Of a stretch of 53,952 nt of DNA, positions 351 through 51,640 are shown piece after piece; positions within the stretch are counted from its first letter, which is position 1; each line of letters starts with the position of its first letter. Both the position numbers and the translations under genes were made by a program. This stretch comes from a virus. The stretch lies in the IMG/VR virus record IMGVR_UViG_3300046543_000128, positions 1 through 53,952 of that record. One strand, given 5' to 3'. Below the pieces are notes generated by a model. It ran no database searches. It was not told the DNA's origin and was given only the letters and a program-made list of their open reading frames with translations.

Positions 351-430
351 TGCGTCCTCTGCGTGTTAGGTGCGCGCATCGGCCCGTATGTGTTCCGGGT
401 GCCTGCCCTGACCGGCGCGCGCGAAAATTG

Positions 431-592: not shown

Positions 593-607
593 TGCTTCCC
601 CTTGTGG

Positions 608-826: not shown

Positions 827-1104
827 CGCTTCACCTTCGGCGTCGTGATCTTCGCCATGTGTGCGAGCGCGTCCGATTGCTCGGCGAAGAACTGCGCGCC
901 GTTGCCTGCCGCCCATTTCTCCAGATCCACACCTAGCGTTCTGAATCCCGGCGAGCGGCGATAAACGCTGTAGCCCCACACGGTCAAAGCGCCGGATCGA
1001 CAATTGATCTTGCAGCAGAACATCGTCGGGAAGCAGTCCGGCCCGTAGATGCACCAGAGCGGCCGGTAGTGATATTGCGGATCAGTCGGATCGATTGCGC
1101 TCAT
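823..1104 (-). CDS. Cys-containing small protein, unknown function (93 aa)
   Basis: Start at 1104 (MSAIDPTDPQYHYRP) follows a GGAGG site and overlaps the upstream metallophosphoesterase stop (ATGA). The N-terminal half carries four Cys within about 20 residues (CIYGPDC, then FCCKINC), suggesting metal binding, though this is not shown. Translationally coupled to both neighbours. Confidence 0.7.
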   Translation of the reverse strand: MSAIDPTDPQYHYRPLWCIYGPDCFPTMFCCKINCRSGALTVWGYSVYRRSPGFRTLGVDLEKWAAGNGAQFFAEQSDALAHMAKITTPKVKR

Positions 1105-2273: not shown

Positions 2274-2485
2274 TCACCACCTCCAGATTGGTCTTTCGGC
2301 AGCAAGAGCGTTACGCCGTACGATTCTTTCCCCTCTCGACACGCACGGCACATCAGCCTGCGCTTATGGCCAACGAAGTTGAACAGGCAGCCGATGCAGC
2401 GATTGACGTATTGGCCGTTCTCATGCGCGAAGTCTTCCGGCCAATTTCTGTCAGGGTGACCGAGATGGCCGAAGTTCATGCGCAT
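2270..2485 (-). CDS. putative zinc-binding small protein (up to 71 aa)
   Basis: Contains CIGC and, 15 residues later, CRAC (pattern CxxC-N-CxxC), a likely zinc knuckle. Two starts are close together: ATG at 2485 and ATG at 2479 (MNFGHLGHPDRNW). GAGAGG lies just upstream and spaces better to 2479, which gives 69 residues. It ends in GTGA overlapping the next start. Function unknown. Confidence 0.7.
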   Translation of the reverse strand: MRMNFGHLGHPDRNWPEDFAHENGQYVNRCIGCLFNFVGHKRRLMCRACREGKESYGVTLLLPKDQSGGGE

Positions 2486-2489
2486 CCTC

Positions 2490-2666
2490 TCAGCGAAGCG
2501 TTGCCGCCGCGCTCAGCAGGTTGTATGCGTCAGCGCAGGCGATTTGCTCGTGGTTGTCGGGGTTGATCGCCGTCATGCGCGGTCGCATATCGACGATCGT
2601 CATTTCGATGCCGCCGTGTTCTTCCATCACGCGGCGAGCGATTTCTAAGGCTTGCGCGAACGTCAT
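2490..2666 (-). CDS. small protein, unknown function (58 aa)
   Basis: Translation starts MTFAQALEIARRVMEEHGG and ends in LLSAAATLR. It is predicted helical and soluble. No independent ribosome site is visible; the ATG overlaps the upstream stop (ATGA), so expression is probably by translational coupling. Confidence 0.7.
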   Translation of the reverse strand: MTFAQALEIARRVMEEHGGIEMTIVDMRPRMTAINPDNHEQIACADAYNLLSAAATLR

Positions 2667-2803
2667 TCGTCGATGTAGTCCTGCATGCTCGTCAGAACAG
2701 AATCAAGCCCTTCGCAGGCATCTCCGAGCGCGTCAGCAGTGAATGCGCACACACCAAGCAAGCCAAGCAGCGGCCAGCATGCGAACCAGGTGAGCAGCTT
2801 CAT
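2663..2803 (-). CDS. small membrane or exported protein (46 aa)
   Basis: Starts MKLLTWFACWPLLGLLGVC after GGAGGGCGC. A hydrophobic N-terminal segment precedes an acidic tail (ALGDACEGLDSVL). It could be a signal-anchored protein; LGVC is only a poor match to a lipobox. It lies between two coupled genes. Confidence 0.7.
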   Translation of the reverse strand: MKLLTWFACWPLLGLLGVCAFTADALGDACEGLDSVLTSMQDYIDE

Positions 2804-3060
2804 GCGCCCTCCTTCGGAGGAATGCGCGGCACCTCGCCGAACGGCGTCCCGGCCCATGCGGCGAATGCCGCATCCCGATCGCGTTTCATGGCGGTGACGA
2901 TTAGTTGCGACTTCTCACGCTCTCGCGATGCCCGCAAATCTTCAGGCGTCGGCGTCCAGTCTTCATCGAAGCTCTCATCGAGCGAATCGAGCGCCGCACA
3001 CGCGTAGATCGCAGCAAGCGCAATCAGCGTGATACCACCACCAATCAGCCACGGAAGCAT
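2800..3060 (-). CDS. single-span membrane protein (86 aa), first gene of the minus train
   Basis: Start at 3060 follows AAGGGGATTGCA. Residues 2-25 (LPWLIGGGITLIALAAIYAC) form one transmembrane helix, followed by an acidic then basic cytoplasmic tail. A longer in-frame start at 3201 lacks a ribosome site and would run across the divergent control region. Function unknown. Confidence 0.7.
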   Translation of the reverse strand: MLPWLIGGGITLIALAAIYACAALDSLDESFDEDWTPTPEDLRASREREKSQLIVTAMKRDRDAAFAAWAGTPFGEVPRIPPKEGA

Positions 3061-3167
3061 TGCAATCCCCTTTGCAAAAGCTACTGTTAAAGATGCGTTT
3101 CTGATCGTACCAATACGCGTTTCGCCTCTACACGTATCCACGATCTCACTTAGATGCACAAATACGC

Positions 3168-3198
3168 TTGCGTCAACGCATCTATTAAAGTATCGTTT
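3168..3198 (+). promoter_or_regulatory. early promoter with operator dyad
   Basis: TTGCGT (3168-3173), a 17-base spacer and TATCGT (3191-3196). The spacer and -10 contain CAACGCA-N11-ATCGTTT, a member of the repeated dyad. It drives the 3245-4218 genes and faces the minus-strand train. Confidence 0.5.
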
Positions 3199-3244
3199 CA
3201 CCTATGCGCTGAACGAACAGCGCGAAACCTACCGGAGAGCAGAC

Positions 3245-3598
3245 ATGAGCAAGTTCGAAATCACCTTCAAGCGCGAAAACGGAAGCACCTTCGTCGTCGC
3301 CTATGTCGGCGAAACGGCTCGTCACGCAACGTTCAACGCCGCTAACGAACTCTCGACGGTCGGCGAAATCATGCTCGAAGTCGTCAGCGTCATTGAAGTG
3401 TTCCCGGCCCAACCGGAAGTGCGCATCGACAACACCAAGCTGATCAACTGGATCGAATCGCACGACGCACTCGTTACGCGCGACTTCGGAGCGAACCTTG
3501 AAGTGCGCAGCGTTGCTTGCCAGAACGGCCGCGCGTTCTACGTGTACGACACGATCCCGGCGACGCTCTCCGCAGCGCGCGACCTGCTCGGCTACTAA
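3245..3598 (+). CDS. small early protein, unknown function (117 aa)
   Basis: First gene of a short rightward operon, starting MSKFEITFKRENGS after GGAGAGCAGAC. It is mixed alpha/beta and soluble, with a predicted N-terminal beta hairpin and no recognised domain. As the first gene behind an operator-bearing promoter, a regulatory or host-takeover role is possible, but this is inference only. Confidence 0.75.
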   Translation: MSKFEITFKRENGSTFVVAYVGETARHATFNAANELSTVGEIMLEVVSVIEVFPAQPEVRIDNTKLINWIESHDALVTRDFGANLEVRSVACQNGRAFYVYDTIPATLSAARDLLGY

Positions 3599-3619
3599 TC
3601 AAACAACGCGAGGCAGACC

Positions 3620-3799
3620 ATGACTATCACGCTCGACAACATCACCAAGGCACTTGACGCACTCAAGGAAGCGCGCGAAGCACTTTGCGACTCAGATCCG
3701 GCCGTTCGCGGATCGGCTCGCGCAGCTTGCACGGTCTCGATCATCGGCATCGAAATCGCACTGAAGCGAACGCCGGTCACCGTGCTTGAGAACGCCTAA
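3620..3799 (+). CDS. small helical early protein (59 aa)
   Basis: Starts MTITLDNITKALDALKEAREAL; almost entirely helical with heptad-like hydrophobics, so it may dimerise. GAGGCAGACC precedes the ATG. It lies 21 bases after the previous stop in the same operon. Function unknown. Confidence 0.7.
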   Translation: MTITLDNITKALDALKEAREALCDSDPAVRGSARAACTVSIIGIEIALKRTPVTVLENA

Positions 3800-3909
3800 C
3801 CAGATTCGCCTTTTCGTCAGGATCGCAGCAGCGCTCGCCGTCAGCCAAGCGACGGCAGCACCACCAACACCGGCCAGTCATAGGCTTGTATCGCATACGG
3901 AGAAAAATC

Positions 3910-4218
3910 ATGAGAGCAATCGAATCCGCAGCAGACGCATACGCCAATCGATTATTAGCGGCACATTACGGCGAGCAGGATGAACACGACGCAATGCTTG
4001 AAGAAGCCGAGCGCATGGCAGACGAGCGCATCAAGAACCTTGCCGACGATGATCTCGTTGCCGGCTTTCACTCAGTCATCGGAAAAGACGCAGCGCGCAT
4101 CAGGGCCGCGTATCACGATGACGCAAAACTAGCTGCACTCGTGCGCGAGCTAGTCGAGGTAGAAATCGCGCGGGATTCGCGCGATATGGCTGAGAACGCG
4201 ATGTCTAGCAGCCACTGA
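3910..4218 (+). CDS. small helical early protein (102 aa)
   Basis: Start at 3910 (MRAIESAADAYANRLL) follows GGAGAAAAATC. The protein is acidic and helical with no domain I recognise. The 110 bases before it hold nothing I can identify. It is the last gene before the terminator at 4285-4308. Confidence 0.7.
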   Translation: MRAIESAADAYANRLLAAHYGEQDEHDAMLEEAERMADERIKNLADDDLVAGFHSVIGKDAARIRAAYHDDAKLAALVRELVEVEIARDSRDMAENAMSSSH

Positions 4219-4284
4219 GGTAAAAGCATGGTCCCGCAACGCAATCCGGTGCTCAGGTTATAGGCCGATCCGCTACGAGACGAA

Positions 4285-4308
4285 GCCAGCCGACGAGCTG
4301 GCTTTTTT
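4285..4308 (+). terminator. intrinsic terminator of the 3245-4218 operon
   Basis: GCCAGC-cgacga-GCTGGC followed by TTTTTT: a perfect 6-bp stem with a U tract, 66 bases after the last stop codon. Confidence 0.85.
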
Positions 4309-4376
4309 GTTTGGTGATACTGCACCGGTTACGTGTCCGGCGACGCGATGGCATATCGCGCCCGTGCGTAGGCCTA

Positions 4377-4661
4377 TCATTCTGCACCGCGGCTTGCCAA
4401 GCCCATAAATAAAGGCGCGGTAGCGACGTCGTTTATCACTCGTCCGCCAGCGAGTCGCAGGGTCGCGGGATTTATCGTCCGCGGTGGTTCTGCAGTTTTG
4501 TCGGGGCGCTTCACAGCGAGCCAAGTAGAGAGCGGCCAGGTAATCCCAACCCGACGCAGCGCGCGAGGATCGCCCGCGGAGCTGCGCTTGACCCTCACGA
4601 CTGGCGAATGACGACCCTTACGGGGCCAATTCGCTCCGGCGAACCGGTGGACAATCGCCAT
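4377..4661 (-). CDS. doubtful ORF, basic protein (94 aa)
   Basis: Starts MAIVHRFAGANWPRKGRH; AAGGAG lies 11 bases upstream of the ATG. The Arg-rich, low-complexity composition is what antisense or structured RNA gives in a GC-rich genome, but phage Ash/Icd-type proteins near immunity loci look similarly odd. I cannot decide between these. Confidence 0.22.
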   Translation of the reverse strand: MAIVHRFAGANWPRKGRHSPVVRVKRSSAGDPRALRRVGITWPLSTWLAVKRPDKTAEPPRTINPATLRLAGGRVINDVATAPLFMGLASRGAE

Positions 4662-4710
4662 GCGTGAGAGTGCTCCTTACGGGAGCAAGTCGGCCGGTGG
4701 GGAGCCGGCA
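4611..4710. ncRNA. candidate structured RNA with four hairpins
   Basis: Within 100 bases: CCC-TTACG-GGG, TTCGC-tccg-GCGAA, GCTCC-ttacg-GGAGC and GCCGG-tggggag-CCGGC. Two loops share the core CCTTACGGG. Strand and function are unknown. It could be an antisense immunity RNA or a leader; it could also be chance pairing in GC-rich DNA. Confidence 0.3.
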
Positions 4711-4894
4711 GGCGAAACCAGAATGCAAAAGCCGCCGCGTGATTTCTCAGGCGACGGCTGCTGTGTAAAAAACGCCACTCAATCTCGAAAGCGAGCGGCT
4801 AACGGCCCTTGCGAACCGAGGAAAGACCTACAACACGAGGACTTGACGCAAAAACGACATGATGGCTAAATCATACAAAACCGTAACGGATGCG

Positions 4895-5101
4895 TCAAGC
4901 ACTTTCTGCAACTTTTTTGGCATCGTTTCGCGCGCAGCGATCCAACAGAATCGCCAGCACCTCCGCATGACGATCTGCCGGGATCGCACTCGTCACCGCA
5001 TTGACTAGCTCGACAGCCGAAAACGATGTCGATAAGCCCCCCTCCGTAGCGGCAGGCTGGTTCGACGATGCGATCGACATCACTTGTTCTTGGACAATCA
5101 T
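4895..5101 (-). CDS. small protein beside the repressor (68 aa)
   Basis: Translation MIVQEQVMSIASSNQPAATE, then a helical region (SAVELVNAVTSAIPADRHAEVLAILLDRCA). AGGCAGGTAACC precedes the ATG; a second Met at residue 8 is an alternative. Being transcribed from its own promoter next to the repressor suggests a lysogeny-associated gene. No domain is recognised. Confidence 0.6.
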   Translation of the reverse strand: MIVQEQVMSIASSNQPAATEGGLSTSFSAVELVNAVTSAIPADRHAEVLAILLDRCARNDAKKVAESA

Positions 5102-5157
5102 TGGTTACCTGCCTTCGCTATCTATTGCGGGATCGTTTGTGGTGAAACAGTTCCAAT

Positions 5158-5186
5158 ACAATAATCCCTATCATATGGCGAAGCAA
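5158..5186 (-). promoter_or_regulatory. promoter for the 4895-5101 gene
   Basis: On the minus strand TTGCTT (5186-5181), a 17-base spacer and TATTGT (5163-5158), in an AT-rich intergenic stretch. An AAACGAT half-site (minus strand, 5138-5132) lies about 20 bases downstream and could be a repressor contact. Confidence 0.4.
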
Positions 5187-5297
5187 GTTTTTTATGTTTA
5201 ACTTTGTTGCATAAAAGTCGTTTGCGCGGGAATATTTACTTTGTTCACACTAAAAGGGACATGTTTTGTCTACTTCCTGTCAACCGAATCAAATCAG

Positions 5298-5741
5298 TCA
5301 TTTATGAACGGCCGGTCGCTTCTTCGGCTCGCTATGCACCAAGCTCTCTAGCGGCTTCCCGGTAATAAGTGCCGTCATGACTTCCAGCAGCGTATCGCGC
5401 GACGCTTCCGGATACTGGGCGTACAGCGCCATCACCGTTTCGTTGAATTTCTTGGCGGCGTCATCCTTTGCCATGAACTCGGCTGAATGATCGGTATCAA
5501 GCCATCCGCTCGGTAGCTTGAGTGCCTCTTCTACCCTGTCGCGCAGGTTCGGGCCGGCCAACTTGTGACCGCTCATGATCTGGCGAAAGTTGATGACGCT
5601 TATCCCAAGGCGTTCAGCGAACATCTTCATCATCCCGCGCTCTGGATGCTCGGGATACTGCGATCGAACCTCATCCTTGAACTGCTCGAGCAGGAACTTC
5701 AGGTTTCTCCGCCGTACCTGGTCAACGGTCTCAATGCTCAT
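5298..5741 (-). CDS. helix-turn-helix repressor-like protein
   Basis: A 147-residue protein with a Cro/CI-type HTH at about residues 40-75 (FAERLGISVINFRQIMSG, then LRDRVEEALKLPSGWLD). The C-terminal half is helical and lacks an S24/LexA-type autoprotease Ser-Lys pair, so RecA-driven self-cleavage is not expected. Start at 5741 follows GAGGATCTAAAG. It is divergent from the replication operon and is the obvious candidate to bind the AAACGAT-N11-ATCGTTT dyads. An AAACGAT half-site at 5844-5838, in its own upstream region, could mediate autoregulation. Confidence 0.85.
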   Translation of the reverse strand: MSIETVDQVRRRNLKFLLEQFKDEVRSQYPEHPERGMMKMFAERLGISVINFRQIMSGHKLAGPNLRDRVEEALKLPSGWLDTDHSAEFMAKDDAAKKFNETVMALYAQYPEASRDTLLEVMTALITGKPLESLVHSEPKKRPAVHK

Positions 5742-5939
5742 TCTTTAGATCCTCAATCTTCGAAAGGTTTTGTCTTTGACGTGTGCTGCGTCACGCGATC
5801 TTTCTTCTAGCCGCGTGCGTCGCCCCTGCGACTAGGCATCGTTTTGTGTATGTTCCGGCTTTTTGCAGCGAAAAGCAACCGCAAAAGAAGCATATTTCTA
5901 GTGTTTTCTTGCACTTAGCCCAGTTAACGCACGGCGAGA

Positions 5940-5981
5940 TAGACATCTTTTACGGCATACGCTACTATTTCGGCATCGTTT
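5940..5981 (+). promoter_or_regulatory. replication-operon promoter with operator
   Basis: TAGACA (5940-5945), 17-base spacer, TACTAT (5963-5968). The dyad ATACGCT-N11-ATCGTTT (5957-5981) overlaps the -10, so an occupied operator should block transcription of 5998-8847. Confidence 0.55.
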
Positions 5982-5997
5982 CAACTGGGGAGAAACC

Positions 5998-6138
5998 GTG
6001 ACCGCCGATCGCGAAACGAAAGCTCGCCAGATGGCGATGGCGAAGAACGTCAAGAAGCTCAAAACCAAGGAGGCGAAGCGGGCTCAGGTTCACCAGCTCT
6101 GCGAATCGCTGAAGAAGGCCATACGAGGAAAACAATGA
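5998..6138 (+). CDS. small basic protein (46 aa), first gene of the replication operon
   Basis: GTG start after GGGGAGAAACC. Lys/Arg-rich and helical (MAMAKNVKKLKTKEAKRAQ), possibly nucleic-acid binding. It overlaps the replication organizer start as ATGA. Too short for the supplied ORF threshold, but the start signal and coupling are good. Confidence 0.7.
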   Translation: MTADRETKARQMAMAKNVKKLKTKEAKRAQVHQLCESLKKAIRGKQ

Positions 6139-6977
6139 GCATTATCCGAGGGGCGCGCCCCGAATCTGGTTACTACCGCGTCAGCAACACCATCAGCGGC
6201 GACAAGCACTTATCGTGGTCCGCTCGTGGACTGCTGATTTTTCTCCTGAGTAAGCCCGATCACTGGGAAGTGTCGGTTGCTGCGCTCGTCAACGAAACCG
6301 AAGGAAGCCTGCGCGGCGCTGGCGGCCACACGAAGCGCGATGGCGTTAAGGCGATTCTCGCAGAGCTGATGCAGGCCGGGTACATCACCCGCAGCGACAA
6401 GCCGAAACACAATCCTGACGGCAGTTTCGCAGGGTACGACTACATCGTTTCCGAAGAATCGAAGCCATCGCAGGATAAACCGTCGACGGTCGCACCGTCT
6501 CCGGATGAGCCGTCGACGGTTGATCCGTCGCCGCCTAATCCGACACAAGTAATAACTGATTCTAAGAAAGAACTGAAAAGACAAGTAACGACTGAGGATC
6601 GCGCTACGCGCGCTGCTCCCGTCCAGTCAGCTTCGCCTCTTGTCTGCCCTATCGCTCAAATCGTGCAGGCATATCACGACGAGTTGCCGAACAACCCGCG
6701 CGTGAAGGTTCTGAATGACGATCGTCGTAAGTCAATATCCGCTCGCTGGAAAGAAGCAGCCCGTCTGGAATGCAAGCCTTTTGGCTACAGCACGGTGTCC
6801 GAAGGTCTGGCGGCTTGGAGGCGGTTCTTCGCTATCTGTGCTGAGTCTGACTTCCTGACGGGCAAGGCAAAACCGCAGCCGGGTAAGCCCCAGTTCATTG
6901 CAGACATTGATTTTCTATTTGCGCCGAAGAGTTTCACGAAGTGCATCGAAAACAAATATCACCGGGAGGTAGCATGA
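6135..6977 (+). CDS. phage replication organizer (winged-helix, DnaD/O-like)
   Basis: A 280-residue protein. Residues 1-110 form a winged-helix domain of the replication-organizer type (YYRVSNTISGDKHLSWSARGLLIFLLSKPDHW). A Pro/Ser/Thr linker follows (about 112-140, repeats of PSTV/SPxEPST). The C-terminal domain (about 165-265) should contact the helicase. Such proteins bind the phage origin and load DnaB. The directly downstream DnaB gene supports this. A lambda-O-style origin inside the linker-coding DNA is possible: GTCGACGGTC-type repeats occur around 6480-6530. Confidence 0.85.
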   Translation: MSIIRGARPESGYYRVSNTISGDKHLSWSARGLLIFLLSKPDHWEVSVAALVNETEGSLRGAGGHTKRDGVKAILAELMQAGYITRSDKPKHNPDGSFAGYDYIVSEESKPSQDKPSTVAPSPDEPSTVDPSPPNPTQVITDSKKELKRQVTTEDRATRAAPVQSASPLVCPIAQIVQAYHDELPNNPRVKVLNDDRRKSISARWKEAARLECKPFGYSTVSEGLAAWRRFFAICAESDFLTGKAKPQPGKPQFIADIDFLFAPKSFTKCIENKYHREVA

Positions 6978-7480
6978 AAGACGATCTGAAGCCGTGCCCG
7001 TTCTGCGGCGCGAAGCCTACTCTCAAGCGTGCCGGCGAGATCGTCGGCATCTCGTGCGGCAAGGAAACCGGGTGCGACAACACCGGCTTGTTCCTTTGCT
7101 TCGCTGCGGACAAGGAAGCTGAAGCGATCGCCGCATGGAATCGCCGCGCTCTTCTCGCATCCTCCGCGAGCGACAAGCAAGAGGCGGCGGGCCAGTGGGT
7201 TCATTGTTCACCTGCGCTGCTCAGCGCTGGCGTGAGTTGCGCCAATACTCCGCGCCGAGCATGCGCGTGCCAACCGGAGAACGGCGGTCACGATCATTTC
7301 ATTGCACACACGGCTCAGGAATGGCGCGAACGCTGGTACGGCTCTGACCCCGAGCGCGGCTGGTCGATCCTACAGGGGCGTGATGTCGTCGCGTATATCG
7401 GCGGCGACGAGAGCATGAGCGATGCCGTCAGGGCGATCGTCGATGCGCACAACGCGGTCATCGCCAAGGAGCAAAAATGA
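6974..7480 (+). CDS. Lar-like zinc protein with extra C-terminal domain
   Basis: Start at 6974 (MKDDLKPCPFCGAKP) overlaps the upstream stop as ATGA and follows GGGAGGTAGC. The N-terminus has the Lar family pattern: CPFCG, then C/C around residues 28-32, and ending AIAAWNRRA. Lar proteins relieve type I restriction. Residues 70-168 are an extra region not typical of Lar, so the protein is about twice the usual length. It may protect incoming DNA; this is inferred from the family. Confidence 0.75.
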   Translation: MKDDLKPCPFCGAKPTLKRAGEIVGISCGKETGCDNTGLFLCFAADKEAEAIAAWNRRALLASSASDKQEAAGQWVHCSPALLSAGVSCANTPRRACACQPENGGHDHFIAHTAQEWRERWYGSDPERGWSILQGRDVVAYIGGDESMSDAVRAIVDAHNAVIAKEQK

Positions 7481-8847
7481 GCGCCAACGACCTTCAGCGG
7501 TCCGTCCCGCAAGCCGTAGAAGCGGAACAATCCGTTCTCGGCGCCCTTCTGCTCGACAACGACGCCATCGACCGCATCGGCGATCTGCGCGCTGAGCACT
7601 TCTTCCGCGGTGACCATCGCGCCATCTTCGTCGAGATCGTCTCGCTGATCTCTGCCGGCACTGGCGCGGACGTCATGACCGTGTTCGAGCGCCTGCAAGC
7701 GAAAGGCCGCGCGCAAGACGTCGGCGGGCTGCCGTATCTCAACGACCTGGCGCACAGCACGCCGAGCGCATCGAACATCACGCGCTATGCCGACATCGTG
7801 CGGGACCGTGCTCAGAAGCGCGGATTGCTGGCCCTGTCGCACGAGATTCAGGATTCGGTCGGCACCACGCCGGATAGCGCTGCAGTGCTGATCGATCGCG
7901 CGTCGTCGAAGCTGGAGAAGCTTGGCGAGTCTGTCGTGAAGTCGGAGCCGGTCAAGGCTGCGCAAGCATTGGTCGACTACATAACGCACATGGAGAAGCA
8001 GGCGGAAGGCTTGATTAAGCCCGTCTCCACCGGCCTGACGGATCTCGATCGCAAGCTCGGCGGCGGCTTCTATGCGGGCGATCTGGTCGTCGTTGCCGCC
8101 CGCCCCTCGATGGGGAAAACCGCGTTTTCGCTGACGGTTTCGGCGAACGTTGCTGAGACTAAGCCGGTTCTATTTCTGTCTATGGAGATGACGAACCTCC
8201 AGCTCAATCAGCGACTTGTGTCGTCGCAGGGCCGGATCTCTATGGCGACACTGCGCAACCCGGCCGCCATGAGCAACGACGAATGGTCGCGCGTGACTGT
8301 GGCGACACAACGCATTGCCAATCTCGAACTGTATCTCGACGACCAACCGAGCCTGACCCTGCTCGAAGTGCGTAACAAGGCGCGAACTGCGAAACGCAAA
8401 TATGGCTTATCCATGCTTGTTGTCGACTATTTGGGATTGATGGCCACCGCAGACGAGGAGCGGCGTGACCTACAAATCGGCGCGATCACCAAGGGGCTGA
8501 AGAACCTCGCGAAAGAGCTCAGCATCCCTGTCGTGCTTTTGTCGCAGCTCTCGCGCAACGTCGAGCAGCGCCCGAACAAGCGCCCGATGCTGTCGGATCT
8601 GAAGGACTCCGGCGACATCGAAGCCGACGCAGACACGGTTCTGTTCCTGTACCGCGACGAGCAATACAACCCCGACACGATGGATCGTGGCGTCTGCGAA
8701 GTCATCTGCGCGAAGCAGCGTCAAGGTGAAACCGGAATCGTCGGCACTGCGTTCATCGGCGAACAGACGCGATTTGAGGACTTGGCGCACGGCCAGTCGT
8801 TCGGATCGAGAGGCGAATCGAGGCCAAAAAATAGGGGATTCGACTGA
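7477..8847 (+). CDS. dnaB: replicative DNA helicase DnaB
   Basis: A 456-residue protein of normal DnaB length. N-terminal helical domain (PQAVEAEQSVLGALL), linker, then a RecA-like motor from about residue 180: STGLTDLDRKLGG, Walker A RPSMGKT, VLFLSMEM, Walker B MLVVDYLGLM, LSQLSRNVEQRPNKRPMLSDL and an arginine-finger region. It forms the hexameric replication-fork helicase. ATGA overlap with the upstream gene; last gene of the operon. Confidence 0.95.
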   Translation: MSANDLQRSVPQAVEAEQSVLGALLLDNDAIDRIGDLRAEHFFRGDHRAIFVEIVSLISAGTGADVMTVFERLQAKGRAQDVGGLPYLNDLAHSTPSASNITRYADIVRDRAQKRGLLALSHEIQDSVGTTPDSAAVLIDRASSKLEKLGESVVKSEPVKAAQALVDYITHMEKQAEGLIKPVSTGLTDLDRKLGGGFYAGDLVVVAARPSMGKTAFSLTVSANVAETKPVLFLSMEMTNLQLNQRLVSSQGRISMATLRNPAAMSNDEWSRVTVATQRIANLELYLDDQPSLTLLEVRNKARTAKRKYGLSMLVVDYLGLMATADEERRDLQIGAITKGLKNLAKELSIPVVLLSQLSRNVEQRPNKRPMLSDLKDSGDIEADADTVLFLYRDEQYNPDTMDRGVCEVICAKQRQGETGIVGTAFIGEQTRFEDLAHGQSFGSRGESRPKNRGFD

Positions 8848-8864
8848 AAAATCGCGTGCTTTTT

Positions 8865-8897
8865 TTGCCGACATACGATACTATTTAAGCATCGCGT
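8865..8897 (+). promoter_or_regulatory. promoter/operator region after dnaB
   Basis: The dyad ATACGAT-N11-ATCGCGT (8873-8897) overlaps a TACTAT -10 (8879-8884); a weak -35 (TGCTTT or similar) lies about 16 bases upstream. It lies 26 bases after dnaB and should start the 9054-11387 transcript. The rest of 8898-9053 holds only a GGCCAAA...TTTGGCC palindrome. Confidence 0.45.
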
Positions 8898-9053
8898 ACC
8901 GCATTAGATATGTTTCTTTCTTTCTGCGTTTGGGGCCAAAAAATTTGGCCATTCGTTGCAGAAAAGCCAAAACGGCGATGTAAATGTGTGCCGAAGTGGC
9001 ATCTTAACCCATAAAGCCGTCACGGAATAATCGGCCAAACGAGGAGCCATACA

Positions 9054-9296
9054 GTGTTCAAGATCGAAAAAGACATTCCGATTCCCGAGGGCCGCAAGCG
9101 CGGTCGGCAGTCGTCCTACCCTTTCGCCAAGATGTCGAACGGCGAATCTTTCATCGTGGAAGGTGCGGAAGAGCGCATTGCGGTGATCCGTCGCGCGGCT
9201 CACTCGTTCGGCTTGCGCCACCGTAAGCAGTTCATCGTTCGCTTAGTTCCGGGCGGCGTTCGTGTTTGGTGCGCTGGCGACAAGGAGCCGGCATGA
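9054..9296 (+). CDS. small early protein, unknown function (80 aa)
   Basis: GTG start after CGAGGAGCC. Translation begins MFKIEKDIPIPEGRKRGRQS; a basic segment then a mixed alpha/beta region (YPFAKMSNGESFIVEG) resembling small phage proteins of unknown role. First gene of an ATGA-coupled string. Confidence 0.75.
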   Translation: MFKIEKDIPIPEGRKRGRQSSYPFAKMSNGESFIVEGAEERIAVIRRAAHSFGLRHRKQFIVRLVPGGVRVWCAGDKEPA

Positions 9297-25418: not shown

Positions 25419-25475
25419 AGTGACCACAACAATCGAATCAATTTTGCGCACAACTCGCGCAGCATGGGGAATGTA

Positions 25476-26000
25476 ATGAGGAAGCGAACGAACCGCAAGC
25501 CGCGACTTGTCAAAAACAACATCGTCAGCAATTTATTCAACGCTGACGATCCGATGCCGGAGCACGATCGCGTTGCCGTGCTGACCGAGCTGCACTCAGC
25601 CGTCTTCGCCCTCTCCCGTGGATTTGGCGACGCGCATCATTGGGATACGCTGATCGTGGGCATGAACATCGCCGTCAACGTCTGCGCAATGGCACAGAAC
25701 GCGCACATCGGCCTCAACGCCGTGAACGAAGCCCGCAACGCGCTCATCAGCGTTCGCGAGCGCGCACACGATATGGGCCGATTCGTGTTCACTGGCGACG
25801 AGCTCGGCGCGGTAAATGGCGGCGTTCACGTGTACGAGCAGATCATCGAGACTGTCGGCCGTCGCCAGTATGTGGCAGCCTGCAAGCGTTACACCCGCGA
25901 CGTTGATGCTGGCAAGGCGATGAAGATCAAGGCCGGCCAAGAGAACAGACGCTTCAAGATGAAGGGAGCAGACGGAAATGAAAGGAGACTCGCAGCATGA
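25476..26000 (+). CDS. early protein, unknown function (174 aa)
   Basis: ATG at 25476 preferred over 25464 because GGGGAATGTA gives it a site. Basic N-terminus (MRKRTNRKPRLVKNN), then an all-helical domain rich in Ala/Asn/His (HHWDTLIVGMNIAVNVCAMAQ). No recognised family. Confidence 0.7.
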   Translation: MRKRTNRKPRLVKNNIVSNLFNADDPMPEHDRVAVLTELHSAVFALSRGFGDAHHWDTLIVGMNIAVNVCAMAQNAHIGLNAVNEARNALISVRERAHDMGRFVFTGDELGAVNGGVHVYEQIIETVGRRQYVAACKRYTRDVDAGKAMKIKAGQENRRFKMKGADGNERRLAA

Positions 26001-26232
26001 ATGCCCGTTGAGGGATCGGTGCGACGCGATATTCGACCAGTCGGTCGAGGCTCGCGTAGAGTATGTGCGAGAGTTGGAGGACGTGACGCGGGCGCGGGAC
26101 TATTGGTGCGACCAGGCAACGAAAGCCCTGCGCGCGCTCGCGGAGATAGCTGAGATGGTGGACTACGACGCGGATGATGGGCTGCCGCTGCATGCGGGCG
26201 TACCCGAGGCGGTGCGGCAGTCGTTGGAGTGA
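25978..26232 (+). CDS. small coiled-coil protein (84 aa)
   Basis: MKGDSQHECPLRDRCDAIFD; Cys residues at the N-terminus then a charged helix (ARVEYVRELEDVTRARDYW). Overlaps the previous gene by 23 bases; GGGAGCAGACGG precedes. Last gene before the partition region. Confidence 0.65.
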   Translation: MKGDSQHECPLRDRCDAIFDQSVEARVEYVRELEDVTRARDYWCDQATKALRALAEIAEMVDYDADDGLPLHAGVPEAVRQSLE

Positions 26233-26255
26233 AGATTGTTTTCTTTCTTGATTGA

Positions 26256-26362
26256 AATCTTGGTTTCTTGGTTGGTTCCAAGATTGAAAGAATGATTTAA
26301 CTCTGGCATTCCTTCAAGAATGGTTTATTCTTTGCAATCAATCATTCAAGACACCATTCTTG
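26256..26362. promoter_or_regulatory. candidate partition centromere/operator
   Basis: AT-rich stretch directly upstream of parA with two inverted repeats, AATCTTGG (26256-26263)/CCAAGATT (26278-26285) and CAAGAATGG (26315-26323)/CCATTCTTG (26354-26362), and further TTTCTTGG and ATTCAAG copies between. In small ParA systems the binding partner contacts such repeats both as centromere and as operator. Confidence 0.55.
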
Positions 26363-26371
26363 GAGTAAAAC

Positions 26372-27019
26372 TTGAGAACAATCGTGATCTCCAGCCTGAA
26401 GGGCGGCGTCGGCAAAACGCTGCACGCAGCTCATCTTTCGGTGGCCCTTGAGGCAATGGGGCAGGGGCCGGTCGTCGCAATGGATCTCGACCCGCAGGGC
26501 ACATTTTCAAGCTGGTGGAACGACCGGAAAGCCGACACGCCAGCATTCGCCCAAGTCGAAAATCACGCTCAGATCAAGGCGAAGCACGCGCAGTTGGAGG
26601 CGGCCGGGTTCAAGTGGCTGATTATCGACACCCCTCCGCAGACGGCCGAAATCAACCGCGCGGCGATCCGCCTTGCTGACCTGGTGATCATTCCCTGCAA
26701 GCATGGGAAGGGAGACATCGAGGCGTCGCTTGATACCGTGGAACTCTGCGAGCAGGAAGGCCGCAAGTTCTTCTACCTTCTGAACGAGACGAACGGGGCA
26801 TCGGTGGCGGGAAAGACGGTCAAGAAGCTTGCGGCGATCGGGCCGGTAATCCCGCAGACGATTCCGAAGCTGAACGGTTATTGGCAGTCGATGTACACCG
26901 GCAAGACGATCACCGAAATTTCGAAGGGAACCGGGGCGATCCTCATTCACGACCTAGCCGACTTCATCGTCAGCAAATTCGAGAAGCCGAAAGCAGCGGA
27001 GGAAAAGGCGTATGTCTAA
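26372..27019 (+). CDS. parA: ParA-family partition ATPase
   Basis: A 215-residue small-type (Ib) ParA: deviant Walker A KGGVGKT at residues 10-16, ALDLDP-type switch (VAMDLDPQGTFSSW), LIIDTPP Walker B. TTG start preceded by GGAG at the end of the centromere-like repeats. It lacks the N-terminal HTH of large ParA, so autoregulation would rest with its partner. Segregates low-copy plasmids. Strong evidence for plasmid-style maintenance. Confidence 0.92.
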   Translation: MRTIVISSLKGGVGKTLHAAHLSVALEAMGQGPVVAMDLDPQGTFSSWWNDRKADTPAFAQVENHAQIKAKHAQLEAAGFKWLIIDTPPQTAEINRAAIRLADLVIIPCKHGKGDIEASLDTVELCEQEGRKFFYLLNETNGASVAGKTVKKLAAIGPVIPQTIPKLNGYWQSMYTGKTITEISKGTGAILIHDLADFIVSKFEKPKAAEEKAYV

Positions 27020-27335
27020 GAACGATTGGGATTCGGTCGTCATCACGAAGAAGGGCGCGGCGACGCCGGCCGCAACGACGCAGCTTGTGGACGAACCAAG
27101 AAAGCAAGAAGCGAAGGAACCAAGAAAAGAAGAACCGGCGATGAAGCGGAAGAGGGTGTGGGAAGGGCAGGACGAATGGATCAAGGTGAACTACGAGGTG
27201 CAGAAGCGCGTTCACAGCAAGATCAAGACGCTGAAGACGTGGGAGCGCATCGACAGCATCAGGGATTTCGTGTCGCACGCGCTGGAGGCAGCCGTTGATC
27301 GAGAGATCGCAAAGGCCGAGAAGGAGGGGTTCTAG
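27012..27335 (+). CDS. ParG-like partner of ParA (107 aa)
   Basis: Basic, disordered N-terminal half (KQEAKEPRKEEPAMKRKRV) and a C-terminal helix-rich part (NYEVQKRVHSKIKTLKTWERIDSIRDF) that could be a ribbon-helix-helix-type dimer. The start overlaps the parA stop by 8 bases. By position it is the centromere-binding protein; the fold is inferred. Confidence 0.7.
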   Translation: MSKNDWDSVVITKKGAATPAATTQLVDEPRKQEAKEPRKEEPAMKRKRVWEGQDEWIKVNYEVQKRVHSKIKTLKTWERIDSIRDFVSHALEAAVDREIAKAEKEGF

Positions 27336-27438
27336 GTTCTATCTCTCAAAGCAGTCAGAGATTTAAGAAAGATTTAACCTTGTTTTTAAACTGCTTTCGC
27401 TCGTGTAAGTCGGTGATTCTACGAGAGAAATGTGGGTG

Positions 27439-27547
27439 TATTGGGGCAGTCAGCCGGGTTCTATTGGGGCAACTGATCGGGTTATTGGAGCAGTCAGCCT
27501 GGTAACTAGGGCAGTCAGCCGGGTTTATTGGTGCAATTGACCGGGCA
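27439..27547 (+). repeat. five direct iterons
   Basis: Consensus TATTGGGGCAGTCAGCCGGG, starting near 27439, 27462, 27483, 27504 and 27526, i.e. every 21-23 bases (two helical turns). Copies 1 and 4 are nearest the consensus; copies 2, 3 and 5 vary in the centre. These should be Rep binding sites. Confidence 0.88.
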
Positions 27548-27548
27548 G

Positions 27549-27557
27549 TTATCCACA
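27549..27557 (+). promoter_or_regulatory. DnaA box
   Basis: TTATCCACA, a perfect consensus DnaA-binding site, 2 bases after the last iteron. Confidence 0.85.
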
Positions 27558-27586
27558 AAGTGCAATTATCGGACCAACTTTTGCCT

Positions 27587-27615
27587 TTGCACTAGTGCAG
27601 AAGCGGTGCTACTCT
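27587..27615 (+). promoter_or_regulatory. rep promoter
   Basis: TTGCAC (27587-27592), 17-base spacer, TACTCT (27610-27615), 42 bases before the rep start. A further inverted iteron lies between -10 and the start codon, so Rep should repress its own gene. Confidence 0.55.
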
Positions 27616-27630
27616 AGAATCAGCCCTAAT

Positions 27631-27652
27631 AACCCGGTTCATTGCCCCAATA
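27631..27652 (-). repeat. inverted iteron at the rep start
   Basis: Reverse-strand copy of the iteron (TATTGGGGCAATGAACCGGG), ending 4 bases before the rep ATG. Typical of Rep autoregulation. Confidence 0.8.
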
Positions 27653-27656
27653 GACG

Positions 27657-28412
27657 ATGAGCGACGTTTTCGCGCAGCCACAGCAGATCAAGCGAGCTAA
27701 CCTTGGTGACAAGTGGGTGACGTTCGCCAATGACCTTACGCGCGCCGCGCACAAGCTAACACTCGGAGAGAAGAGGTTGGTTGCGGCCTGCATCGCACAG
27801 GTGAAATCGGATTCTCCGGTGCCAACCATCGACGAGCGCGATCGAAAGACATACACGGTCACGGCCCGCGAGTACTCGGATCTATACGGCATCGACATCG
27901 AGTCGGCATACGAGCAGATGAAGAAATACCAGTCTTCACTCTACGAGAAGGAGATCCAGACGTACAAGCCGAATGGAAAAGAAGGGCGAAAGGTGCGATG
28001 GGTGCAGGAAATCCAATACAACGACGGTGAGGCAAGTGTCACGCTCATGTGGAGCGATGCGATCTGCATGGCGCTGTTCAACCTGAAGGATCAGTTCACG
28101 ACCTACAAGTTGCGGTACGCCGCGAACCTCACGAACAAGTACACATGGGACGTGTTCGAGATGCTTGCGATGTGGCGGCGGGCTGGAAAATGTACGATGA
28201 ACGTAGAGCACATCAAGGACAAGCTCGATGTGAAGCCATCGCAACGCGCGAACTACAAGGAACTGCGCACCAGAGTCATCGAGCCATCGTTAGACGAGAT
28301 CAAGAAAAAGTGTGGGCTCGTAGTGACAGTGAACGAGGTCAAGAAGGGGCGGAAAGTCACAGACCTGCACTTCACATGGGAGCCAGACCCGCAAGGCACG
28401 CTTCACTTCTGA
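27657..28412 (+). CDS. rep: Rep_3-family plasmid replication initiator
   Basis: A 251-residue protein with two winged-helix domains of the Rep_3/RepB type: NDLTRAAHKLTLGEKRLVAACIA, TVTAREYSDLYGIDIESAYEQM, SLYEKEI, and second domain FTTYKLRYAANLTNKYTWDVFEML, DVKPSQRANYKELRTRVIEPSLDEI. It binds the upstream iterons to open the origin. Start at 27657 follows the inverted iteron. Together with parA it defines a low-copy plasmid replicon. Confidence 0.92.
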   Translation: MSDVFAQPQQIKRANLGDKWVTFANDLTRAAHKLTLGEKRLVAACIAQVKSDSPVPTIDERDRKTYTVTAREYSDLYGIDIESAYEQMKKYQSSLYEKEIQTYKPNGKEGRKVRWVQEIQYNDGEASVTLMWSDAICMALFNLKDQFTTYKLRYAANLTNKYTWDVFEMLAMWRRAGKCTMNVEHIKDKLDVKPSQRANYKELRTRVIEPSLDEIKKKCGLVVTVNEVKKGRKVTDLHFTWEPDPQGTLHF

Positions 28413-28768: not shown

Positions 28769-28926
28769 GCTTCAATCTCGACGACGCACACGAAGGCATG
28801 AACTGGTGGAACAGTTTGCCCGAAGAGTTACGGCGATTCTGGATGGATCAGGCCGGCAATACAGGCGTTGTCGCCGATGCTTGGGAGGCGTTCAAGCGCG
28901 GCGAATGCGATCCTCCAGACGAATAA
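28765..28926 (+). CDS. small acidic protein (53 aa)
   Basis: GTG start overlapping the previous stop (GTGA). MSFNLDDAHEGMNWWNSLPEE; acidic with a short Trp-rich helix. Not in the supplied ORF list because of length. Confidence 0.6.
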   Translation: MSFNLDDAHEGMNWWNSLPEELRRFWMDQAGNTGVVADAWEAFKRGECDPPDE

Positions 28927-28981
28927 CAAAAAGTTTGATCATCAACGTTATGTCAACAACTACAAATACAAGAGGCCAAAT

Positions 28982-29173
28982 ATGGGCGCGATCCTGCTTC
29001 TGATCGTTTCGATCCTGATTTACCTGATCCCGACGTTCGTTGCGCGAGCTCGTCGGCATCACAACTATGGCGCGATCGTCGCGCTGAATCTGTTTCTCGG
29101 ATGGACATTTCTTGGATGGGTCGGCGCGCTTGTGTGGGCGCTGACCGCCACGAGGACGGCCAGCACGGCATAA
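28982..29173 (+). CDS. imm: superinfection immunity membrane protein
   Basis: 63 residues with two transmembrane helices: MGAILLLIVSILIYLIPTFV, a basic turn RARRHHNYGA, and VALNLFLGWTFLGWVGALVWAL. The pattern PTFVA-R-R-HHNYGAIVALNLFLGWTFLGWV is the superinfection-immunity family (T4 Imm relatives). It blocks DNA entry of related phages. GAGGCCAAAT precedes the ATG; its stop abuts the DUF1353 stop. Confidence 0.85.
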   Translation: MGAILLLIVSILIYLIPTFVARARRHHNYGAIVALNLFLGWTFLGWVGALVWALTATRTASTA

Positions 29174-29563
29174 TCACGCGGCAGTCGCCGGGCCGCTCCA
29201 GTGCGAGCCGCCGCCACCGATGCGCACGCCTAGCCACATGATCTGTCGGCGCAGCCACGACATGCCATTGACGGCAGACGCCTCGCGCAACACGGCATCA
29301 GCGACATTGCGCGGCACGACATGCGTTGTGTAGATCCAATCGTGGATCACGCTCGCCATGTTTGCGACGCCGCCGCCAATCTCGTAGACGAACGGGATGC
29401 GCGGCGTGCTCGCAAGATCGGTGACGAAGCCAGCCGGCACGGTGAACGTCTGCCCCGCCACATCGGACTGATAGACGAGCGGCTCAAGCAAGCGCCACGT
29501 CGCCGGCTCGTCTTTGATCAACTCAGCGTTCAGCGTGTCGTGCGGCTTCACGAAAGCGCTCAT
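29174..29563 (-). CDS. DUF1353 family protein
   Basis: 129 residues: FTVPAGFVTDLASTPR...DWIYTTH...ADAVLREA, the DUF1353 signature found near lysis and tail-fibre genes of many phages. Function unknown. Coupled to the upstream lipoprotein gene (ATGA). Last gene of the late block. Confidence 0.9.
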   Translation of the reverse strand: MSAFVKPHDTLNAELIKDEPATWRLLEPLVYQSDVAGQTFTVPAGFVTDLASTPRIPFVYEIGGGVANMASVIHDWIYTTHVVPRNVADAVLREASAVNGMSWLRRQIMWLGVRIGGGGSHWSGPATAA

Positions 29564-33740: not shown

Positions 33741-33843
33741 GTTTGCGAGGATATAATCCAGAATATTGCGGCCTGCGCCCACGGCTAGCCGTCAGCACGC
33801 GGGAAGCACCGCTACTCGCCCAAACTTAAAGATGGTGAAGTTC

Positions 33844-34818
33844 ATGATTTCAAAAGATAAAAAAGTGCTTGAGGCGCTGCCCTTTTTGGCGGCCCCGCCG
33901 GAGACGCTGGATGTCTCCGAGCAACTGTTTCGCGATCAACTCGACTGGCTTAACAAACTGCCAGGCGATTTCGGCTCCATTCTCGATGTTGGAGCTGGGG
34001 CCGGCTACCACTCCAAGTACTTCGAAGTAATGGGGCACGACGTCACTGCATGCGACATGCGCGATCGGTTCATCTTCAAGGACTCATCGATCGAGTTCCA
34101 CGAGTCAACGCTGGAAGGCCTTCCGGCCAACAAGAGATACGACGCCATTTTTGCTTCGCACATCATGGAGCACATCATGGATCTGGGCGGCTTCATCGCT
34201 AAGTTGAAGAGCCTGTTGAACGATGGCGGCTACCTTTTCGTGTTCGTGCCAAACACGCACTACACGGAAAGCGGCCATTGGCTTGAGGGTTGGTCGATCC
34301 CACAGTTGGCCGTCATGCTGTGTTCGCTCGGCTTCGACTGTCGAGACAGCTTTTTCACGACCTTCGGATACCACACGCTTGGATTTGGCAGGAAGACCGA
34401 TCGACCGAACTGCGATTTCTTGATCGAGGAATGCTTGCCATTCCTCCCCGCCAAGTTCTCCGAGTTAAAAACTGTCGGCATATATCCAGCCTTGCAGCGG
34501 AACGTCTCTTTCGTCGATAACGAGAAGATCGTCAGAACGCCCGCCCCTCACGAACTGGTGGAGTTGTCAGCGTTAAACGACACACAGTTTCGGCTTGATG
34601 AAACGTCGGCGAGATTGATCCTCGCGGAAGCTAAGCTGTCAGATTCTGAAGCAATGGTGAGCCACTACAAGGCAGAAGCCTCGAAGATCCGAGACGAGTT
34701 GAGTCGTTCCGAGGCGGAAGCCGCGAGGCTTCAAGACGAACTGGCAAATGTCTATGCCTCGCGATCATGGACATTAACAGGCCCCCTGCGCCGGATCGTA
34801 AGCGCCATTAAACACTAG
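33844..34818 (+). CDS. SAM-dependent methyltransferase (moron-like)
   Basis: 324 residues from MISKDKKVLEAL; earlier in-frame starts at 33832 and 33766 are possible. Class I methyltransferase: SILDVGAGAGYHSKYF (motif I), TACDMRD (motif II), YDAIFASHIMEHI (motif IV), and a late coiled coil ending SRSWTLTGPLRRIV, a tail often seen on sugar-modifying enzymes. It is opposite to all late genes and convergent with the fibre-assembly gene, so it is likely expressed separately; TATAAT sits at 33752-33757. Possible lysogenic-conversion function on surface glycans. Confidence 0.82.
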   Translation: MISKDKKVLEALPFLAAPPETLDVSEQLFRDQLDWLNKLPGDFGSILDVGAGAGYHSKYFEVMGHDVTACDMRDRFIFKDSSIEFHESTLEGLPANKRYDAIFASHIMEHIMDLGGFIAKLKSLLNDGGYLFVFVPNTHYTESGHWLEGWSIPQLAVMLCSLGFDCRDSFFTTFGYHTLGFGRKTDRPNCDFLIEECLPFLPAKFSELKTVGIYPALQRNVSFVDNEKIVRTPAPHELVELSALNDTQFRLDETSARLILAEAKLSDSEAMVSHYKAEASKIRDELSRSEAEAARLQDELANVYASRSWTLTGPLRRIVSAIKH

Positions 34819-46598: not shown

Positions 46599-48158
46599 TT
46601 AGCCTGCCGACACGCTGCTCGACGACTTGATCGTTACCGTCTGACCGCCTTGCAGGTTGATGACGAAGTAGAAAACGATGCTGAGATACTTCACAGCGAC
46701 GTTCGCCGTCATGTAACCGTTGGCGACTGCCGAATCCGAGTTGTTCGTGCTGTCGATGACGACCGTGAACGGCACCGCTTGCGGGTTGTTCACGTCGCCG
46801 ATCATTCCGACCTTCCACAGATTCGTGAGGTAGTCGTACATGGCCGCCTTCGCTTCATTGCGCAGATCGGTCGTCTGCGGCTTGCCGATCACATAGCCGA
46901 ACGCCGACGAGAGCGTCACGGCCAAGTAGTTCGTCATCCGCGTGTAGTTGTCGCCACACGTCGCCGCGTTGCTCGATGCGTTGCGGCCGGTCTGACACGC
47001 GAAGTAGTTGCCGCCCGGCGACGGATTCGTGATGACGTCCAGACGCGCGGTTGCGATCTGGCCGATTTCCGCCATGCTGTAGGCGTTCTTCTGCGCGACG
47101 CGCTGCGTGCTCGAGATGCCGAAGATCGCATCGTTCAGGCTCGACAGGTGCGGCGAGAGCATCGCTTGCTTGGCCGCCCAAAACGTCGTCGGGCCGAGCA
47201 GACGCTGCACCTTGTTCGTGCCGTCCTGCCAGTAGATCCAGTCGCCGACCATGCACTTGATGCCGTAGCCATCGGCGCCGGCCGTGTTGAGCGCGGTGGA
47301 TACGGTCGAGTACGACGCTCCGGACGCGCCTTGCAGGCCGAAGTAGATGCCTTCGGACAGAGCGAACGCGAGAACCGTGCTGGCAGCCGTCAAATCGCTG
47401 TGATCGACGAGCGCGGCAACCTGAACGCCAGAGCTGCGCAGCGCATACATGCCCTTGCGCGTCGTGCTGGTGCCATCCACGCCGACGAGCGTAGCGTCCG
47501 TCATCGAGCCAGTGCCGTCCGTGCCGCCCGTAGCGGTGAACGTTGCCGACGTGCTCGGCGCTGCGGTGGACGTGCCGACCGTGGCGACAAACAGTTGCGA
47601 CGGGCCGCGCTGATCGGACAAGCCGTTATTCACGGCATTGACGAAGTTCGCCCAGAGCGCGCCAGCCGAGCCGGTCACGTTGTCGAAGACTTCCGGCGTG
47701 AAGCCGGGGCGCGTCAGCGTGAGTTTGAAGCTCGACGGTGCGGTGCCGGCCGTGATGGCTGCCGTCAGCGTGTTGCCGATCGTGCCGGTGTAGATCGCCG
47801 TCAGCGTCAGGCCGGTGACCGTGCCCGCGGTGTCTTTGACGAGGCAGGATGCAGCCGCGTCGGTGCCGTCAGTGACGCGCACGTACTGGATCGCGTTGGC
47901 GCCAGCGGCGAGCGCCACCTGAACAGCCGTCGACAGGTCGTACTTGCGAACCTGCGGCGAGCCGAGCCAGTTGGCTTGATCGTTGCCAGAGCCGATCAGC
48001 GTTGCGCTGTTGACCGGACCCCACGAACCCACGCCGACATAGCCGAGCAGGTTGGTTGCGACGCCGTTAATGATCGGCGGCGGCGGTTGAATTTGCAGGT
48101 AGACGCCCGGCGCATTCAACGCGCTTACGTTTAACTGACCATTTTGATAAATGGGCAT
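46599..48158 (-). CDS. contractile tail sheath protein
   Basis: 519 residues from 48158 (MPIYQNGQLNVSALNAPGVYLQI), the start being supported by GGAGCACC. N-terminal sheath pattern (APGVYLQIQPPPP), an insertion domain, then KCMVGDWIYWQDG, MTNYLAVTLSSAFGYVIGKP, and a C-terminal beta domain (YFVINLQGGQTVTIKS). Defines a myovirus-type tail. DUF3383-like family. Confidence 0.92.
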   Translation of the reverse strand: MPIYQNGQLNVSALNAPGVYLQIQPPPPIINGVATNLLGYVGVGSWGPVNSATLIGSGNDQANWLGSPQVRKYDLSTAVQVALAAGANAIQYVRVTDGTDAAASCLVKDTAGTVTGLTLTAIYTGTIGNTLTAAITAGTAPSSFKLTLTRPGFTPEVFDNVTGSAGALWANFVNAVNNGLSDQRGPSQLFVATVGTSTAAPSTSATFTATGGTDGTGSMTDATLVGVDGTSTTRKGMYALRSSGVQVAALVDHSDLTAASTVLAFALSEGIYFGLQGASGASYSTVSTALNTAGADGYGIKCMVGDWIYWQDGTNKVQRLLGPTTFWAAKQAMLSPHLSSLNDAIFGISSTQRVAQKNAYSMAEIGQIATARLDVITNPSPGGNYFACQTGRNASSNAATCGDNYTRMTNYLAVTLSSAFGYVIGKPQTTDLRNEAKAAMYDYLTNLWKVGMIGDVNNPQAVPFTVVIDSTNNSDSAVANGYMTANVAVKYLSIVFYFVINLQGGQTVTIKSSSSVSAG

Positions 48159-50509: not shown

Positions 50510-51640
50510 TTAGCCGAGCAGGATGCCGCTGTGCTCGCTCTTGATGTTCGCCTTGCCCCAGGCAAGCGCGATTTCGTAGCGGATACGGCGGTATTGCGCG
50601 TACATCGACACTTCGAACGCGAGGCCCGAACGCTCGTCGACAATGGTCGTGCGATCGACGGCCGCATCGCCTTCTTCCGGCAGCGCCGGCAGGCGGGTCG
50701 CGAGCACGAAGGCGTTACGCGAGAAGAACGCGTTGCCGGTGTAGGCTGCGCCAACGGTCACAGCTGCGCCGGTGAGCAGCGCTTGCTGCAGGCCAGGCGC
50801 GGCGATCGTGAACGAGCCAGCCGACAGAGCCGACGTCACGACGTACTTGCGCGTATCGCCGTTGAACGTCACGACGTCACCGGCGACGACCGTGCCGGAG
50901 CCGGTCTGCACGTTGATGGTCGTCGCGCCCTTGGCGTGCGCACCGTTCAGCACGTAGCTCGCGCCGGTGCCAGCGGTATGAACCGCGACGCCAGCCGACT
51001 CGCGAACTTGGAAGCCATGCAGTTCGAGCAGCGTTCCTTGTGCGCGCAGCTCGGTCGTGCCGGCTTCGTTCGCCTTCGTCAACTGTGCGAGCGTGCGCAG
51101 GTTCGCACCTGCGGTCGTGTCGATCACGCACTGGAGATCGCTGAGCGGCGCGCCGTTGTCCGACAGGATCTTGCGAGCTTGCGCGGTGGCACTGAGGTCC
51201 GATGCGAACGGCGTGGTGCCTGCGGTGCCGGTTGCGCGCGACGCTTGATACACGAGCGAGCCGATGTCGGATTCCATCTCGTTGACCAGCGTACGCATCG
51301 CCTGCGTGATCTGGTTCGTGCGGATGGCCGCGTAGCCGGCGCCGTGATTCACGCCCTTCTGTTCTTCACCGGTCCAGCGGAACGGCACCATCCGCGACTT
51401 CGAGATGGTGATCACTTGGTTCCCGATGTTCTGGTCACCGTCGTCGGGCGGAAGTTGGCCCGGCGTCACGTCTTCTGCGGTCGATGCCGGAGCGACGAAC
51501 GAGCGGACGTTCTCGTTGAGTGCTGCGCGCGCGACTTGCGCATCGAGCGTGACAGCGGGGATGAAGCCGACCAGTTCGCGCGACACGACGTCGAGCGATG
51601 CATACAGGTCGGGGATAAGATTCGAGAGCGTGTTAGCCAA
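50510..51640 (-). CDS. P22-coat-like major capsid protein
   Basis: 376 residues (MANTLSNLIPDLYASLDVVS). P22 coat family features: VSRELVGFIPAV, PGQLPPDDGDQNIG, RMVPFRWTGEEQKG, LEIHGFQVRESAGV-type region (LLELHGFQVRESAGV), ATRLPALPEEGD and FEVSMYAQYRRIRYEI. HK97-fold shell with an inserted domain. The pairing with a scaffold upstream is normal for P22-like coats, unusual with a contractile tail. Confidence 0.9.
   Translation of the reverse strand: MANTLSNLIPDLYASLDVVSRELVGFIPAVTLDAQVARAALNENVRSFVAPASTAEDVTPGQLPPDDGDQNIGNQVITISKSRMVPFRWTGEEQKGVNHGAGYAAIRTNQITQAMRTLVNEMESDIGSLVYQASRATGTAGTTPFASDLSATAQARKILSDNGAPLSDLQCVIDTTAGANLRTLAQLTKANEAGTTELRAQGTLLELHGFQVRESAGVAVHTAGTGASYVLNGAHAKGATTINVQTGSGTVVAGDVVTFNGDTRKYVVTSALSAGSFTIAAPGLQQALLTGAAVTVGAAYTGNAFFSRNAFVLATRLPALPEEGDAAVDRTTIVDERSGLAFEVSMYAQYRRIRYEIALAWGKANIKSEHSGILLG

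Follow-up and report, generated by a model that had tools for sequence, protein, structure and literature searches.

A ParA–Rep_3 replicon in the integrase slot of a contractile-tailed phage lineage suggests a switch from integration to plasmid lysogeny

Integrases are typically absent from phage-plasmids (PMC12977533). Transitions between this way of life and that of an integrative prophage have been described for P1-like elements, from which the shift of a phage lineage from integrating to plasmid life has so far mostly been inferred (PMC10879196). The nearest proven phage-plasmid to the element described here is the P2-like Burkholderia phage KS14 (Kisquattuordecimvirus), whose prophage was recovered from its lysogens in the form of plasmid DNA (PMC3091744); FLC10 is likely to be a plasmid prophage too. 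Here we analyze a whole IMG/VR virus record of 53,952 bases (IMGVR_UViG_3300046543_000128; hereafter the window), which lacks end repeats and which very likely represents almost the entire genome of a temperate phage with a contractile tail, one that would persist in its lysogen as a low-copy circular plasmid, a par-rep replicon having replaced the tyrosine integrase of its lineage. The original prediction of a phage-plasmid that combines Rep_3/iteron replication with an O-like/DnaB module, the latter presumably lytic, is the best reading of the sequence.

The replicon was said to lie inside a phage genome, and the genes around it bear this out. PHROG profiles name an O-like replication initiator (6135–6977, plus strand) and a DnaB-like helicase (7477–8847, plus), both presumed to serve lytic replication, as well as a Sak4-like annealing protein, an SSB and an endolysin. 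On the minus strand they name a tail sheath, as of a contractile tail (46599–48158), a major head protein whose PLSDB homologues are named as the P22 major capsid family (50510–51640) and a portal protein (52535–53923); the par-rep block sits between plus-strand early genes and minus-strand lysis and structural genes. A superinfection immunity gene (28877–29173, plus; Pfam Imm_superinfect, 7.7e-17), together with a weakly matched transcriptional regulator that is a candidate lysogeny repressor (5298–5741, minus; phrog_5736, 1.2e-6), points to a temperate phage. No near DNA match to named phages was found for 14.0–39.0 kb of the window, and a search for Rfam families and tRNAs returned nothing. 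A methyltransferase gene (33832–34818, plus) stands within the minus-strand tail/lysis block as possible cargo, and is unchanged in another record (L095). In L005, positions 1–9161 are 88–97% identical to window 2–9161 over most of the early region and the portal is only 82% identical, a disparity that points to strong mosaicism within the group.

The two ends of the window are bridged by a second IMG/VR contig of 26,394 bases (L003), whose first 127 bases are identical to window positions 127 to 1 and which is identical, from its base 2454 onwards, to the window from 53952 downwards. The 2.3 kb between the window ends hold a short gene, TerS and TerL, which closes the map at ~56.3 kb, adds the terminase subunits to the portal, coat, sheath and endolysin genes among the packaging and particle genes of a phage-plasmid, and largely excludes an integrase or attP beyond the window. 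A closed map is as expected for a plasmid, but can also arise from permuted or circularised virion DNA and is thus no proof of the lysogen state. The same caution follows from an Aquitalea relative, a circular record of 54,370 bp that carries an integrase; we considered this Aquitalea plasmid as a second phage-plasmid, and rejected it given its integrase and its lack of an annotated ParA or Rep.

The first gene of the block is parA (26372–27019, plus), which starts at a TTG that aligns with the ATG starts of two homologues (L113 and L114). As anticipated from its KGGVGKT motif (SLKGGVGKT in full), it encodes a ParA-type ATPase (Pfam AAA_31, 2.5e-13; PHROG ParA-like partition, 6e-31), which at 215 residues, with a match to ParF (4dzz) over residues 3–187, is a small ParA without an N-terminal DNA-binding domain. 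The parA stop codon is overlapped by 8 bases by a small, parB-like partner gene (27012–27335, plus), homologues of which come after ParA in L113, L114 and a Burkholderiaceae phage contig described below (G301:C7). While the predicted overlap stood, the proposed ParG-like, ribbon-helix-helix nature of the partner was not confirmed: the protein has no match in Pfam, PHROGs, the PDB or PLSDB, and its AlphaFold model (mean pLDDT 62, helices only) is too weak for a fold search. Upstream of parA, the expected inverted repeats form a CAAGA/TCTTG array (26232–26371) with arms at 26232–26255 and 26338–26361. These motifs occur seven times in 26226–26371, the densest such stretch in the window, as compared with 0.9 expected from Markov shuffles, none of 5000 of which contained as many. 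By their position and the repeats, the small gene is a candidate partition partner and the array a candidate partition site and operator.

Downstream of the partner gene lies the arrangement of a Rep_3 iteron replicon, ~20-bp direct repeats adjoining a DnaA box and an AT-rich box. The box, a candidate unwinding element with repeated GATTTAA (27353–27392; 75% AT), ties for the most AT-rich 40-mer in the window. It is followed by the five predicted iterons, 21-nt direct repeats on the plus strand with the consensus TATTGGGGCAGTCAGCCGGGT and a spacing of 21–23 (27439–27546), which score 26–32 bits against a position weight matrix built from them. The DnaA box TTATCCACA (27549–27557, plus) is indeed perfect, and occurs once in the window (0.14 expected). 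The same matrix revealed a sixth, inverted copy missed by the original prediction (27632–27652, minus), the next best site in the 54 kb scoring 11.9. This copy lies just 5' of rep, at the same place as in G301:C7, in an arrangement like that of self-regulating iteron replicons, and is a candidate autoregulatory operator at the presumed rep promoter. The rep gene (27657–28412, plus) encodes a Rep_3 initiator, as proposed, with both winged-helix domains (Rep3_N, 4.6e-34; Rep3_C, 3.6e-14), and all three reading frames of the block (3/3) are open and complete.

These features suggest a model in which Rep would bind the five iterons by the DnaA box, open the AT-rich box and start plasmid replication, and at the inverted iteron would repress its own gene; copy control, too, may reside in this block. 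ParA and its small partner would act on the repeats 5' of parA and distribute the copies, and the O-like initiator and DnaB would carry lytic replication. The existence of this separate O-like/DnaB module bears on a different assignment, in which Rep and its iterons would replicate the phage DNA early or during lytic growth or, as iteron replicons cause incompatibility, exclude plasmids, and the lysogen would be maintained by other means, such as an integration system of an unrecognised type. A recombinase of an unrecognised kind is conceivable, but it is hard to see what lytic growth would gain from a partition system, and we regard this assignment as very unlikely.

Known kinds of recombinase were sought directly. 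Consistent with the predicted lack of an integrase, neither a tyrosine integrase (PF00589, E<=1) nor a resolvase-type serine recombinase (PF00239) was detected in the window or L003, and an HMM of the integrases of its relatives was negative on the window, with a working positive control. This HMM was built from ten ORFs, two of which (L085 and L087) were wrong-strand picks, and it missed the integrases of L102, L107 and L109–L111, which were found by Pfam. By contrast with the window, tyrosine integrases are frequent in its relatives: a portal search recovered 76 IMG/VR loci, and in the 28 longer records screened an integrase was present in 16, including 12 of the 13 that are 50 kb or longer, whereas Rep_3 or ParA was present in none (0/28). 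One portal relative, at 62%, lies on a scaffold of the planctomycete Zavarzinella formosa (L091), either an odd host or contamination.

The position of these integrases could be compared with that of the par-rep block, which in the window is flanked on one side by a gene at 25978–26232 (plus), followed outwards by another at 25464–26000 (plus), and on the other by the immunity gene and a DUF1353 gene (29174–29563, minus). The slot was readable in only eight or nine records, since the HMM misses some of the integrases; in two of these (L103 and L106) the integrase occupies the exact slot of the par-rep block, with the counterpart of 25978–26232 on one side and the immunity or DUF1353 gene on the other, and in six (L096 to L101) it is displaced by one gene and stands between the counterparts of 25978–26232 and 25464–26000. 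TerL is 94–96% identical to that of four relatives (L013, L020, L023 and L035), every one an integrase bearer, which suggests that the mode of lysogeny was swapped recently. A portal tree groups the window with integrase bearers in a supported clade, and requires two changes of state, namely those of the window and of the Rhodovastum atsumiense plasmid RHOApg. Portal relatives were also found in 9 of 399 sampled Burkholderiaceae genomes, on contigs that range in length from 190 kb to 5.4 Mb, which fits integrated prophages. The simplest history would be that the lineage of the window lost its integrase and acquired the replicon, although we infer this direction from a single lineage.

Relatives that integrate are also what would be expected if the phage were an integrating prophage that had lost its integrase and gained a plasmid fragment as an unused passenger, being now effectively lytic or defective. 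Module mosaicism is common in the group, with portal, TerL and coat identities that disagree between relatives, and this, too, favours such a reading. Against it, the three genes of the block are intact. Where parA can be compared with its counterpart in a contig from another sample (L112, in which the junction on the parA side recurs at 97% identity, together with different early genes), all seven substitutions over 142 codons are synonymous (7/7), with no amino-acid change. The repressor-like and immunity genes likewise count against it, as does the conservation of the origin in two other phages, and a passenger is thus an unlikely explanation.

These two phages emerged from a search for the closest Reps in Burkholderiaceae genomes, which are encoded on contigs of 62,070 bp (G254:C40; 69% identity) and 79,569 bp (G301:C7; 67%). 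G301:C7 carries the entire block with its order kept (ParA 74%, partner 41%, Rep 67%), and also encodes a virion RNA polymerase like that of N4 (3793 residues), a portal and a terminase; the polymerase sets it apart from the window, as do its portal and terminase, which differ from those of the window. This contig (loci L150–L152, L154 and L155; 59480–61505 and 11728–23109) is of note in itself, as an N4-like phage in which the ParA-partner-iteron-Rep_3 module is intact; phages of this type are generally regarded as strictly lytic. G254:C40 (L147–L149 and L153), a phage-like contig that encodes a DarB-like protein of ~4,490 residues and a further kind of portal, has six iterons and a DnaA box along with its Rep. 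Both contigs retain rep, the iterons and the AT-rich box, as well as the DnaA box, which is invariant, and in an alignment of the three origins GATTTAA.AAAGATTTAA, CCTTGTTT, most TATTGG.GCA cores and GTTATCCACA are invariant. That non-coding DNA is conserved to this extent in three phages that are otherwise unrelated is, at the sequence level, the best evidence for a working origin.

Two further loci were considered as Rep carriers and rejected, since they lack Rep_3 and encode an HTH_36 protein after ParA and the partner (L114, 10001–11729, and L113, 10001–11515; ParA 62–63%, partner 44–45%). L114 resembles the same N4-like phage type as G301:C7, and L113 has a tyrosine recombinase. A Rep scan of viral contigs recovered a single locus, which was spurious.

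Burkholderiaceae phages may thus share a transferable lysogeny cassette in the ParA-partner-iteron-Rep_3 block, one that has reached at least three unrelated particle types, an N4-like one included, and that can convert an integrating phage into a plasmid phage by one recombination at the integrase slot; in our estimate this is an evenly balanced proposition. The occurrence of the same ParA-partner-Rep module within the G301:C7 phage genome also argues, with the junction in a different sample and with flank genes that are those of the integrase in relatives, against a misassembly of a phage contig with a plasmid contig, which we consider the least probable explanation of all, even though the rep-side junction (28.4–29.2 kb) is present in the window contig alone and L003 ends near window 30,012, short of it.

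Since close relatives, with TerL at ~95% identity, differ at one slot in having integrase or replicon, the proposed switch from integration to plasmid lysogeny is directly testable by a one-locus exchange. The phage-plasmid type described here is probably missing from typing schemes built on known groups, and the replicon could be used as a search tag for further phage-plasmids.

When set against known systems, the replicon proteins of the window match by sequence those of classical plasmids, namely RepE of F (1rep) and RepA of pPS10 (1hkq), both Rep_3 proteins, and the small ParA ParF of TP228; F, pPS10 and TP228 are plasmids without phage genes. Like the window, KS14 has a Rep_3 initiator (251 residues, 41% identical, the nearest phage Rep) with direct repeats upstream that have TATTGGGGCAA, half of the iteron, in common with those of the window, and it has a ParA and no tyrosine integrase. 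Unlike the window, KS14 has an unrelated, P2-like particle and a genome of 32 kb, its ParA is just 26% identical, and its rep and parA lie apart on opposite strands. P2-like structural genes (KS14-like, Peduoviridae) were not found in the window, whose portal and coat families differ, and KS14 is absent among the portal matches listed.

The claim that this would be an unusual type of phage-plasmid has to be softened, for a parallel exists in RHOApg (NZ_OW485608.1; 55,472 bp), whose portal (61%), coat (52%), scaffold (68%) and baseplate genes are related to those of the window, and in which ParA (37%) and a Rep lie at the corresponding place, between early and lysis/structural genes. Its initiator, however, is a RepA_C protein (PF04796) rather than Rep_3 and is encoded on the other strand, its host is an alphaproteobacterium, and no match to the tail sheath was found within the 50 kb read, differences that together suggest that its replicon was probably gained independently. 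A short unannotated frame after the RHOApg ParA (L116, 34717–35082) reads like a ribbon-helix-helix partner. The integrase-bearing relatives (L010–L073, for example L023 and L026) share with the window the portal (63–80%), TerL (up to 96%) and the same flank genes, and differ from it in having neither ParA nor Rep_3 but a tyrosine integrase, which lies within the slot or adjacent to it. Against this background, the plasmid lifestyle and the kind of replicon would be known ones, and what appears to be new is this particle lineage, for which we found no description, and the exchange of integrase and replicon at one slot.
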